This document shows, in pieces, positions 46,004 through 52,318 of a stretch of 58,176 nt of DNA. The DNA is from Eggerthellales bacterium. GTDB taxonomy: Bacteria > Actinomycetota > Coriobacteriia > Coriobacteriales > Eggerthellaceae. Location: contig JAQXTF010000017.1 in assembly GCA_029219345.1 (NCBI GenBank), positions 1-58,176 of the forward strand, in the 5' to 3' direction. The translations under genes were made by a program, and so were the position numbers. The notes beneath the pieces are model-generated. The model worked only from the letters and a program-made list of their open reading frames with translations. It ran no database searches and was not told the DNA's origin. Every line of letters begins with the position of its first letter. The first letter of the stretch is position 1.

Positions 46004-46138
46004 TTACACGCAGAGATGCTTACGGCCCTTGGCGCGACGAGCAGCCAGCACAGCACGACCACCCTTGGTAGCCATACGAGCACGGAAACCGTGAGTCTTA
46101 GCACGCTTACGCTTATTCGGTTGATAAGTGCGCTTCAT
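46004..46138 (-). CDS. rpmH: 50S ribosomal protein L34
   Basis: 44 residues, beginning [18 protein letters not shown], with the conserved [20 protein letters not shown]. The gene was found by translating the minus strand. ATG 46138 has AGAAGGG 8 nt upstream. It is the first gene of the rpmH-rnpA-yidD-yidC-jag run, read away from the origin region, with a near-consensus promoter 38 nt upstream. Confidence 0.98.
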
Positions 46139-46175
46139 TTTTTAATCCCTTCTACCTTTACAGAATAGCCATAAA

Positions 46176-46203
46176 ATTATATATCGCCACCATCTATTGT
46201 CAA
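46176..46203 (-). promoter_or_regulatory. promoter of rpmH operon
   Basis: On the minus strand TTGACA (46203-46198), 16-bp spacer and TATAAT (46181-46176). Both boxes match consensus. Confidence 0.88.
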
Positions 46204-46922
46204 TAGATTTTTTATTATTGTTTTTAACAAAAGCGCACTTCAGCGGCTATTTTTTCCATTGAAAAACAGAGCTTTCAGCCTATCAACAACATATCGCTAT
46301 AAGCAAAGATTAAATCACTACATATAGGTTTGTTTCCCTTATTGGAATCTTTTAATTCATAGTTTTTCACTCAACACTTTTTCATGAAAAAGTGGAAAGA
46401 AAAAATAGTTTTCAACAAGTTTTTTCCATTTCTTTGAAAACTTCTGAAAAAATAACTGCCATTTTGTTGAAAACTTGAAAAACATGAAAATCTCTTTTTA
46501 GAACAATACAAAACCCCATATGAAACTCACTTTTTCATGAGACATCAAAATATAACTCTACTGATTTTTCAAAATAACCATGAGCAGGGAAAATACTAAT
46601 TACATCCTATCTGAACTGGGCTTTTACCGCTGTTAATAACTTTTTCACTTACGATCTTCCTATGAAAAAGTAGGAAAACTAACTTTTGTTCGATAATTGG
46701 TGAAAACCATTTAAAGCCAACTGGGGAAACGTATTTTTTTCCTATGTCAAGAGCTATTTTTCAACATACCCTAAATTTTTTCTTCCCAATATTTCAGTTT
46801 TTTTCCTAAGTTTTCAACAAGTTTCGAATATTTGGTGGAAAACTTCGAAAAACCAATGTCAGAGCCGAAAAAAAGATACTCTATGAAAAAAGTTTTAGAC
46901 GGTTCTCCAGGAGTCACATCGG

Positions 46923-46950
46923 TTGAAACATACCCTCGCACTCCTATAAT
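46923..46950 (+). promoter_or_regulatory. promoter of the GHKL-wHTH gene
   Basis: TTGAAA (46923-46928), 16-bp spacer, perfect TATAAT (46945-46950), 44 nt upstream of the TTG start. Confidence 0.8.
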
Positions 46951-46993
46951 GAGACAGTGGGTTTTTACGTGATAAAAGAGGAATGAGTTTTCA

Positions 46994-47767
46994 TTGGAAG
47001 ACGCAACAACACAACATACTTATGCTGGTGAAAACGAGCCCTTTGATTTCAGCTATGTTCAAACGCCGGCGCGCGTTGCCTGCTATGACAACTTAATGAC
47101 GGCACCGCGCATCACTGAAATCAAGCCTGGTCCAACCGCTGAATACATTGAATTACTTACTACTACCGTGTATGAGCAGTCTCACATGGCTGGCGGAAGC
47201 ATTCCTTATACCACTATTCGCGAGGTGTCTGAAAATTTCATTCATGCGCGCTTCTCGGAAATCATCGTTTCCATCCTTGATCAGGGAAACACCATTCGCT
47301 TCGCTGATCAGGGTCCTGGCATTCCTCAAAAGGACAAGGCTCAAATGCCTGGTTATTCAAGCGCAATTGAACCCATGAAACGCTATATTCGCGGCGTTGG
47401 TTCAGGATTACCCCTGGTGCGTGAGTTCCTTAATTCTGCTCATGGCTCCATTACCATAGAAGACAACATCAAAACAGGAGCCGTTGTAACCATCAGTTTG
47501 AATCAAAAGCAAGAAGAAAAGCCTGTTCAAACCAAGGAAACTCCTTCCTTTAGTGCGCCGGCACTCACTGATCGCCAGCGTACCATCATTAAACTACTTG
47601 CCAGCGAAGGTCTTTCCGGTGTTTCCAACATCAGCAAGTTCACCGGCATTCCCTTATCGTCTGTAAGCAATGAACTTACCAAACTGCAAGAAGCAAACAT
47701 GGTAGAAACGGTGGGGAAGAAGCGCCAGCTTACCGATTACGGCAAAAAAGTTTCCCACACCCTTTAA
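46994..47767 (+). CDS. GHKL ATPase fused to winged-helix domain, beside oriC
   Basis: 257 residues from a TTG (AGAGGAA upstream). A HATPase_c-like domain (about 60-175) has the N box VSENFIHA, G1-like FADQGPGIP and G2-like RYIRGVGSGLPLVREFL, as in anti-sigma-type kinases and histidine kinases without a His dimerisation domain. A C-terminal winged helix (about 190-257; LTDRQRTIIKLLASEG, SNISKFTGIPLSSVSNELTKL) resembles MarR/Rrf2-type DNA binding. No membrane span. It lies between the origin and dnaA, 39 nt before the dnaA start. A role in dnaA or origin control is possible (inference); no such role is established that I can cite. Confidence 0.75.
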   Translation: MEDATTQHTYAGENEPFDFSYVQTPARVACYDNLMTAPRITEIKPGPTAEYIELLTTTVYEQSHMAGGSIPYTTIREVSENFIHARFSEIIVSILDQGNTIRFADQGPGIPQKDKAQMPGYSSAIEPMKRYIRGVGSGLPLVREFLNSAHGSITIEDNIKTGAVVTISLNQKQEEKPVQTKETPSFSAPALTDRQRTIIKLLASEGLSGVSNISKFTGIPLSSVSNELTKLQEANMVETVGKKRQLTDYGKKVSHTL

Positions 47768-47806: not shown

Positions 47807-49252
47807 ATGAACACAGAAGAACAGTTTGAAAAAATATGGGAAAGCGTTTGTTCCATGGTCAGCAGCTACAGCGAAGTAGCTCCTTCCCAGGTGAACGCCT
47901 TTTTCTCCCGCGTTCACATTCAAGCCATGAGCGGCAATTTCATTGCTATCACCGCGGAAACCGATTTCATCAAGGAATGGGTGGAGAAGTACTACTTCCA
48001 CTTCATTCAACGCGCCTTGAAAGAGATGTTTGGCGAAGATTTCACCATTCTTTTCGAAACCTCTGCCGTTTCGGGAACCTCCAAATCGGCTGCCGCGGTA
48101 CCGGTCATTGAAAAGACACCGGTACCGGCTCCCAAGGAAGAAACTCCCCTTATTGAGCAGACACCCGCCGAGGAACCAACCGAAGAAGAGCTTATTCGCA
48201 GCATTTCTCCTTTGACCTTTGAGAACTTTGTCATTGGCAACTCCAACCAAATGGCTTACAAAATGGCACTGGCTGTTGCTGAAGCTCCCGGTAAAAAGGT
48301 TGGCCTGAATCCACTTTTCATTCATGGCAGAAGCGGTCTGGGCAAAACCCATCTTCTACGTGCTATTGAAAACCACGTGCGCGACACATATCCCCAGCTT
48401 AAGGTAGTGTACGTAGACTCCTCTGAATTCTTGGACGAATACACTGAGGCAAGCGCCGCCCACGACAAGAACAAGCGCAGCTTCAATAACTTCAAGAAAC
48501 GTTACGAAGAAGCCGATGTTCTGCTCATTGACGATGTGCAGTTCTTCCAAGGCAAAAAGGGCACGCTGGACAACATGTTCCAAATCTTCAATAAACTTAC
48601 CAACAAGGGTAAGCAGGTTGTTCTTTCCGCCGACCGCGCACCCAAGAACATCGACATTGATGAGCGCTACCGTAGCCGTTTTCAAAGCGGTTGCACCTAT
48701 GATATTCAGCCGCCAGAAATTGAAACCAAGCTAAGCATCATCAAAAGCTACATTGAGGAATATAAGGCCTCCGACCCCAACGCCAATTTCAATATCAGCC
48801 CTGAGGTGCAGCAATACATTGTTGAGACCTCTTCTTCCAATATTCGCGAGCTGAAAGGCGCTGTTACCGTCATCATCACTTCCATGATGCACAACAACTA
48901 CCTAACTATGGAAGAAATCAAGCAGCTGCTACAAAACCACTTTGACGGCAGCAATATTAAGCGCTTGGGTATTGGCGATATTCAAGCTGCCGTAGAGAAG
49001 TTTTTCCAGGTCAGCCACAGCGATCTTGTTGGAAAGAAGCGTTCCCAAAACATTGCTTACCCGCGACAAATTTGCATTTACCTGTGCCGCGAAATGTTGG
49101 ATGACATTCCTTTTAAACAGATTGGCGAAGCATTCGGCCGCGATCACTCAACCGCTGTGTATGCCCACAACAACATTAAGGAGAAGAGGAAGGAAAACAG
49201 GCAAACCCAGGAAGAAATTGAAGCACTACAAAAGATCATCACTGACAGGTAA
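47807..49252 (+). CDS. dnaA: chromosomal replication initiator DnaA
   Basis: Binds DnaA boxes and opens the origin. 481 residues. Domain I (1-80), a linker with acidic and Pro-rich stretches (about 90-135), AAA+ domain III with Walker A GRSGLGKT (174-181) and Walker B LLIDDVQFF, and the arginine/sensor II region. Domain IV has the DnaA signature CREMLDDIPFKQIGEAFGRDHSTAVYAHNNI. ATG 47807 follows AAAGG at 8-nt spacing. dnaN follows after 307 nt. Confidence 0.97.
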   Translation: MNTEEQFEKIWESVCSMVSSYSEVAPSQVNAFFSRVHIQAMSGNFIAITAETDFIKEWVEKYYFHFIQRALKEMFGEDFTILFETSAVSGTSKSAAAVPVIEKTPVPAPKEETPLIEQTPAEEPTEEELIRSISPLTFENFVIGNSNQMAYKMALAVAEAPGKKVGLNPLFIHGRSGLGKTHLLRAIENHVRDTYPQLKVVYVDSSEFLDEYTEASAAHDKNKRSFNNFKKRYEEADVLLIDDVQFFQGKKGTLDNMFQIFNKLTNKGKQVVLSADRAPKNIDIDERYRSRFQSGCTYDIQPPEIETKLSIIKSYIEEYKASDPNANFNISPEVQQYIVETSSSNIRELKGAVTVIITSMMHNNYLTMEEIKQLLQNHFDGSNIKRLGIGDIQAAVEKFFQVSHSDLVGKKRSQNIAYPRQICIYLCREMLDDIPFKQIGEAFGRDHSTAVYAHNNIKEKRKENRQTQEEIEALQKIITDR

Positions 49253-50669: not shown

Positions 50670-51806
50670 ATGTCGTTGCAAATCAAACGGCTTACCCTGC
50701 ACAACTTCAGAAATTACCAAGACTTTTGCTGCGACAATTTGTCTCGGTTGAATATCTTTGTGGGTCCCAACGCGGTGGGGAAGACCAATATTGTTGAAAG
50801 TATTGACCTTCTTACCAGCATTTCCTCCTTCAGAAATCCCCGTATTTCTGAATTGGTGGGACCGTATGAAAATTTTGTCCGAGTGAAAACCCTCGTTGAA
50901 GATGATCATCGTTCTTTGACTTTTGAAATGCGCATCGTCGATGGTAAAAAGACCTACCTTCTAAATGATAAAGAAAAGAGAGGAACACAACTGAAGGGCA
51001 TGATACCTTCAGTTGTGTTTACCCCCGACGATTTGACTATGATTAAAGGGTCAAATACCAATCGAAGAAGGGCTTTGGATTCTCTTGGTTCGCAATTGAG
51101 TCCCAACTATCCGGTGATTAAGAAAGATTTTGAGCAGATTCTTCGACAGAAGAATAATTTGCTCAAAGACAATCCTTCTGTAGCCTTTCTCAGCAGTATT
51201 GATGATGTGTTTGTAACCTATGCAACACAACTTTACTGTTATCGCGTGAGCTTATTTGAAAAGCTCACGCCCTATATTAGTGAGTATTATCGAGATATTT
51301 CCCATCGTGGGGAAACGGTGACGGCTGAATATATTCCATCTTGGGTGGAAGAAAATGTTTCATGTGAAACACTCGCCGAAAACGCACCTGATCCGCATGA
51401 CAAGGATCAGGTGCGCCAGCTCATGTACAACGCCGTTGAAAAGGCCAGGTTTAAAGAGCTTGCGGCCAAACATGCAATGATTGGCCCCCATAAGGATGCG
51501 ATTCGCTTTTACATTGACGGTCGCGACGCTGCTATATACGGAAGCCAGGGACAACAACGGTCGTTGGTGTTAGCTTGGAAGTTGGCAGAGGTACGTTTAA
51601 TTGAAGAGATGTTTGATATTAAACCTATCTTGCTTTTGGATGACGTTATGAGTGAGCTTGATGAAGTGCGTCGTAATGAACTCACCAAATATGTATTGGA
51701 AAGTACTCAAACGTTTATAACTACAACCAACATTAGTTACTTCACGCAGGAGATGCTTAATCAAGCTCATATCGTGCATTTGGACTACCGGGAGGACAGT
51801 GAATAA
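50670..51806 (+). CDS. recF: DNA replication and repair protein RecF
   Basis: An SMC-like ATPase that helps load RecA at gaps. 378 residues. Walker A GPNAVGKTN (about 32-40), signature YGSQGQQRSLVLAWKLAE and Walker B ILLLDDVMSELDE. ATG 50670 starts 15 nt after dnaN, and the stop overlaps the next gene's ATG (TAATG). A near-parS site lies inside. Confidence 0.95.
   Translation: MSLQIKRLTLHNFRNYQDFCCDNLSRLNIFVGPNAVGKTNIVESIDLLTSISSFRNPRISELVGPYENFVRVKTLVEDDHRSLTFEMRIVDGKKTYLLNDKEKRGTQLKGMIPSVVFTPDDLTMIKGSNTNRRRALDSLGSQLSPNYPVIKKDFEQILRQKNNLLKDNPSVAFLSSIDDVFVTYATQLYCYRVSLFEKLTPYISEYYRDISHRGETVTAEYIPSWVEENVSCETLAENAPDPHDKDQVRQLMYNAVEKARFKELAAKHAMIGPHKDAIRFYIDGRDAAIYGSQGQQRSLVLAWKLAEVRLIEEMFDIKPILLLDDVMSELDEVRRNELTKYVLESTQTFITTTNISYFTQEMLNQAHIVHLDYREDSE
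51356..51371. promoter_or_regulatory. parS-like site within recF, 15 of 16 match
   Basis: TGTTTCATGTGAAACA differs from parS only at one central base (C to T). Central CpG changes can weaken ParB binding. Confidence 0.55.
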
Positions 51807-52318
51807 TGTCGTTAAAACTGTCCCAAGGCCTTTATCCCGCTCTTGAGGAAATTTTGGGCTCGGCTGAAGAAGCACGCAGACAAGTACGTGCTGCTCAGGT
51901 AGAAGATGCTTATCAAACTGCTGTTGTGGATGTGTTTAAAAAGGCCGCTCCGCTGGTTTTGAAGCATACCAACGCTGTCTATTGTTTTGAGGAAAAGGGT
52001 GTAATGCAGTTTGTCATTTATACAGATGACAGCAGCATTCGCTCTTCTCTTGATGCGCGTCAAGAATGGATGAAAATAGCCCTCTATAAACAGGGTTTGA
52101 CTTTTTCGCTTTTTAAAGTGCTTCCAGCTCAAAAGAGCATTAAGACTAGACATCCGTTCGAAAATGCTCAAATTTTGCCTCAGAAGCCCGTTTTTCGTGA
52201 AATTTCGGCTTCAGAGATGGCAGAAATAGAAGAATTTGTGGCTCCAATTGAGGATGAAATAGTAAAAGAGGCCTTTAAACAGGCTCTTATCAGCGATTTA
52301 AAAACGCGTGAAATATAA
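51806..52318 (+). CDS. DUF721/DciA-like protein
   Basis: 170 residues. This position right after recF is typical of DUF721 proteins, some of which (DciA) help load the replicative helicase. The central part (TNAVYCFEEKGVMQFVIYTDDSSIRSSLDARQ) fits the KH-like fold of that family. Overlaps recF by 1 nt, so coupled. The ends are divergent, so the loader role is an inference from position and fold. Confidence 0.75.
   Translation: MSLKLSQGLYPALEEILGSAEEARRQVRAAQVEDAYQTAVVDVFKKAAPLVLKHTNAVYCFEEKGVMQFVIYTDDSSIRSSLDARQEWMKIALYKQGLTFSLFKVLPAQKSIKTRHPFENAQILPQKPVFREISASEMAEIEEFVAPIEDEIVKEAFKQALISDLKTREI

Follow-up and report, generated by a model that had tools for sequence, protein, structure and literature searches.

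A gene for a GHKL ATPase with a winged-helix tail, here called ghkl, lies between the putative replication origin and dnaA in the window, the whole 58,176-nucleotide stretch of DNA that was analysed. Because this place is kept in nearly all relatives and in several classes of the phylum, ghkl is probably a regulator, not previously described, of when these bacteria start DNA copying.

The ghkl gene lies next to the putative origin region and probably shares a promoter with dnaA

The locus contains the following elements.

46004–46138, − strand: rpmH, the divergent neighbour on the far side of the origin region
46139–46993: AT-rich putative origin region with DnaA-box-like TTTTC[AC]AC sites
46375–46394: perfect 20-bp palindrome CACTTTTTCATGAAAAAGTG, a candidate operator
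46811–46842: inverted pair of DnaA-box-like sites 5' of the promoter, a weak local form of a pair conserved phylum-wide before ghkl or dnaA
46923–46950, + strand: sigma-70-like promoter TTGAAA-16-TATAAT, probably serving ghkl and dnaA
46994–47767, + strand: ghkl, 257 aa, TTG start, with homologs class-wide and phylum-wide
47807–49252, + strand: dnaA (TIGR00362, 409 bits), the next gene 3' of ghkl

The ghkl reading frame is present as the first-pass annotation had given it, 39 nt before dnaA. The gap between rpmH and ghkl is 855 nt long with 31% GC, and the cumulative GC-skew minimum of the window, near 50 kb, is close to it. The annotated placement of ghkl between oriC and dnaA is supported by these sequence features, namely the AT-rich gap with its DnaA-box-like sites and the nearby skew minimum.

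The same annotation had given ghkl a strong promoter of its own. The site matches the consensus at 11 of 12 positions, a score that was reached on the + strand in only 6 of 400 dinucleotide shuffles. Between this site and dnaA, neither a second + strand promoter-like site nor a terminator-like site was found. Therefore, the site probably drives a ghkl-dnaA operon and is not private to ghkl, so that the strength of the promoter stood as a consensus match and its exclusive ownership probably did not. Judged from the DNA, ghkl and dnaA probably form one operon.

Several other features of the window were recorded. A perfect 12/12 sigma-70 consensus promoter, TTGACA-16-TATAAT, is located at 46203–46176 (− strand) and faces rpmH. 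The GC content is about 0.55–0.60 over 1–36 kb and goes down to 0.42–0.49 from about 40 kb around the origin. A 170-aa ORF at 51806–52318, between recF and gyrB, has no Pfam match at E ≤ 0.001; dciA usually lies between these two genes (PMC5109545).

The conserved palindrome upstream of ghkl consists of DnaA boxes

An EM motif search across relatives identified a strongly conserved palindrome 5' of ghkl, and its half-sites are DnaA boxes. The inverted DnaA-box pair was present in 82 of 127 loci with ghkl, versus 11 of 18 loci before dnaA in Actinomycetota without ghkl. Because the pair precedes dnaA in these 11 genomes that do not have the gene, the palindrome was ruled out as a ghkl operator. 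It is best read as a presumptive ancestral site of dnaA autoregulation, and on this reading ghkl would therefore sit between a DnaA-controlled promoter and dnaA. Direct autoregulation by DnaA is documented in Streptomyces and mycobacteria (PMC8203912), where DnaA boxes are likewise found at the promoter leading to dnaA, but without ghkl in between.

Comparing the motifs of loci with and without the gene did not reveal any ghkl-specific operator. With up to 2 mismatches allowed, the genome contains no second copy of the perfect palindrome CACTTTTTCATGAAAAAGTG. The half-site of the palindrome, ACTTTTTCA, was counted 5 times in the 58-kb window against 0.8 expected; every copy, including those at 46529, 46639 and 46663, is between 46376 and 46671, inside a 300-nt part of the origin region. 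The ACTTTTTCA palindrome was not seen in relatives and was rejected as an operator of the family; it is a candidate for this genome only.

ghkl encodes an ATP-binding domain joined to a winged helix

The fusion of a GHKL ATPase to a winged helix, already named in the first-pass annotation, was borne out by the PF02518 match, by the helix-turn-helix matches of homologs and by the AlphaFold model. The protein contains the following parts.

47069–47506, + strand: GHKL (Bergerat) ATP-binding domain, residues about 26–171, PF02518
Motifs of this domain: N-box E77-x-x-x-N81; G1 box D105-x-G107-x-G109; G2 box G134-x-G136-x-G138
47561–47764, + strand: C-terminal winged helix, residues about 190–257, from the AlphaFold model and from HTH_IclR, TrmB and MarR matches in homologs

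PF02518 (HATPase_c) matched residues 73–171 with an E-value of 6.8e-10 and 39.8 bits (cut-off 26.4), and this match, the N, G1 and G2 motifs and the fold matches together place ghkl in the GHKL ATPase superfamily. Among 161 homologs, N81, H84, D105, G107, G109, G134, G138 and G162 are invariant, G136 is kept in 160 and the N-box glutamate E77 in 156. Since the residues of the ATP site are invariant or nearly so, selection almost certainly acts on ATP binding. From these residues, hydrolysis or phosphotransfer is predicted as likely, though perhaps not universal.

In the Pfam search of the window's protein, several winged-helix models matched its tail slightly under their cut-offs. HTH_IclR was matched by 51 of 65 homologs at E ≤ 0.01, with a best value of 6.5e-11. 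The consensus of homologs has the recognition helix STxxRxLxxLE and the wing KRxLTxxG; position 226 is Arg in 121 of the 161 homologs and Asn in the window's protein. The AlphaFold model has a mean pLDDT of 92.2, with high confidence for both domains, a flexible linker at about 175–190, and a winged helix made of helices 193–205, 210–217 and 221–233 plus wing strands. A winged-helix fold with a conserved recognition helix is thus found in the homologs and in the model. With a pTM of 0.71, how the two domains sit relative to each other is predicted less reliably than either domain by itself.

The architecture resembles known proteins, none of which corresponds fully. The top Foldseek match was DIP2311 of Corynebacterium diphtheriae (PDB 3LMM; E 2e-7, TM-score on query 0.48), in an alignment of a length sufficient to cover both domains. 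DIP2311 also has a GHKL-like domain followed by a winged helix, but the identity is only 12–13% and the target chains are larger (477–556 residues). We take DIP2311 to be a COG2865 protein of the AlbA_2-HATPase_c_4-winged helix kind. The domain order of this kind was found for ghkl by Foldseek and in the AlphaFold model, but its models were not, as neither HATPase_c_4 nor AlbA_2 matched the window's protein at E ≤ 1.

Sensor histidine kinases share the HATPase_c (PF02518) family and fold with ghkl. Unlike them, ghkl has an N-box glutamate, no DHp helix pair with a phospho-acceptor His in the model, and no sensor or membrane region; its N-terminal 70 residues form two strands and one helix with no conserved His. 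In CapK/CapS, likewise, a GHKL domain is linked to the control of an adjacent operon by a winged helix, but this system consists of two proteins with STAS domains, controls immune operons and has an N-terminal HTH in CapK (PMC13373217), whereas ghkl carries its winged helix at the C-terminus of one chain and is encoded beside dnaA.

ghkl is kept beside dnaA and the DnaA-box region

A ghkl match was found in 269 of 298 Coriobacteriia genomes and dnaA in 277; 266 of the 277 dnaA-positive genomes have a ghkl homolog. Most absences in the class are attributable to assembly gaps and not to real loss, because dnaA is missing from the same assemblies. Eleven genomes have dnaA without a homolog. In two of these, G095 and G145, dnaA is at the end of a contig; they were left out as unassessable, which leaves nine assessable dnaA-positive genomes of the class without ghkl. 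These absences arose by several independent events. As the nine genomes keep dnaA, ghkl is not universally needed, and it is dispensable in some lineages. Within the Slackia genus group g10, L121 (G162) and L122 (G229) retain dnaA and the origin gap and lack ghkl, while other members of the group have it; G162 and G229 are a natural deletion experiment.

In a phylum sample, 119 of 296 genomes matched at E ≤ 1e-15, 93 of them outside Coriobacteriia. No relative of ghkl was found in phage records or IMG/VR contigs. Plasmid matches were weak, partial and below 60% identity, and the annotated ones were sensor histidine kinases. A mobile or phage origin of ghkl was rejected on these results.

ghkl adjoins dnaA in all 145 loci holding both genes, co-directionally in 142 and divergently in 3; L001, from Slackia isoflavoniconvertens (Eggerthellaceae), is one of the loci where the two genes adjoin. 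The canonical order (rpmH, DnaA boxes, ghkl>, dnaA>) was found in 127 of the 145 loci. In 13 loci the block of boxes, ghkl and dnaA is inverted between rpmH and dnaN, and in 2 the far neighbours are outside the fetched stretch. The three divergent loci, L041 (G102), L051 (G191) and L067 (G267), have the order rpmH, <ghkl, boxes, dnaA>, with the DnaA-box region shared between ghkl and dnaA. For other classes, 35 of 40 fetched loci have ghkl directly beside dnaA, and in the remaining 5 ghkl is beside rpmH with a contig or chromosome end right after it. The linkage that the first-pass annotation had proposed to check across Coriobacteriia is therefore near-universal there, and it is also seen in other classes of the phylum. 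The distribution that it had named as contrary to its proposal, with ghkl scattered and unlinked to dnaA in most relatives, was not observed.

At least 7 changes of arrangement were counted on a DnaA+DnaN tree, and through all of them the DnaA-box region, ghkl and dnaA remained linked. The presence of ghkl changes 6 times on this tree, a count that includes L117, where the absence is a contig-end artefact. DnaA-box-like sites occur at 4.8 per kb 5' of ghkl versus 1.8–2.2 per kb in other gaps. The linkage patterns and this density indicate that ghkl is tied not only to dnaA but also to the origin region. ghkl has diverged in step with DnaA and DnaN, the distance correlations being 0.73 for ghkl-DnaA and 0.84 for ghkl-DnaN; common descent alone would account for the ghkl-DnaA value, since DnaA and DnaN themselves correlate at 0.69. 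A conserved neighbourhood by itself is no proof of function.

Possible roles of ghkl

ghkl could be a GHKL-fold protein kinase, like SpoIIAB/RsbW or BCKDK/PDK, that phosphorylates DnaA or another replication protein and uses its winged helix only as a tether to DNA or to a partner. The sequence profile of ghkl reaches BCKDK, sporulation kinase B, MutL, CheA and many winged-helix regulators, and the first three of these, together with the catalytic-type glutamate of the nearly constant E-x-x-x-N box, are consistent with a kinase; CapK, a GHKL kinase phosphorylating a winged-helix repressor, shows that such control exists (PMC13373217). A kinase is nevertheless unlikely, given that HATPase_c_2, the anti-sigma kinase (RsbW/SpoIIAB) model, does not match the window's protein at E ≤ 1 and is outside the 25 most-matched families of 65 homologs, and that an unsystematic look at the locus noticed no conserved partner gene such as STAS. 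An ATP-driven clamp or architectural protein, dimerising with ATP as MutL or gyrase does and shaping or blocking oriC without regulating transcription, would account for the profile similarity to the N-box region of MutL and for a ghkl that keeps its place next to the DnaA-box region in the loci where it is divergent from dnaA. Such a role is very unlikely for a protein that is small and has no transducer-type domain after the ATPase domain in the AlphaFold model.

It is also conceivable, if improbable, that ghkl is a transcription factor of the ordinary kind that acts on targets elsewhere, held beside dnaA by the inertia of the origin cluster and a convenient promoter. The whole rpmH-dnaA-dnaN cluster is conserved, the locus has no shared operator, and ghkl is missing while dnaA stays in several lineages, all of which suit this view. 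However, from inertia one would not readily expect the DnaA-box region, ghkl and dnaA to remain together while rpmH and dnaN repeatedly switch sides.

As the best explanation, ghkl may well be a regulator that is dedicated to the replication origin and inherited vertically, with ATP-switched DNA binding at the origin/dnaA region. A promoter within the origin region would express the protein jointly with DnaA, and DnaA itself would control this ghkl-dnaA promoter through the inverted DnaA boxes. ATP or a partner would switch the GHKL domain between states, and DNA binding by the winged helix at the origin or the dnaA promoter would differ between these states. The initiator level or origin firing would be adjusted as a result. 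The link from an ATP-bound state to initiator expression that the first-pass annotation had suggested is partly supported. Since the three divergent ghkl genes still abut the DnaA-box region, an action at the origin itself is no less likely than one on dnaA expression alone.

Implications for replication initiation in Actinomycetota

No published description of the ghkl family was found in open-licence PMC papers. The domain architecture is already known from DIP2311. What is apparently undescribed, judging from these papers, is that such a gene stays fixed at oriC/dnaA in several classes. Control of initiation has been well studied in a few model bacteria, with SeqA, Hda, YabA, SirA and others as regulators. 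To our knowledge, these regulators are not common to all phyla. Tentatively, ghkl may represent a deeply conserved class of regulator, encoded in the origin cluster and expressed along with DnaA under the control of DnaA, that reads the state of a nucleotide or partner and gates the firing of the origin in several classes of Actinomycetota. Culturable carriers such as Slackia isoflavoniconvertens make the question of ghkl directly testable. Kept as a single copy between the origin and dnaA across classes despite local rearrangements, ghkl is a strong candidate for lineage-wide control of initiation.
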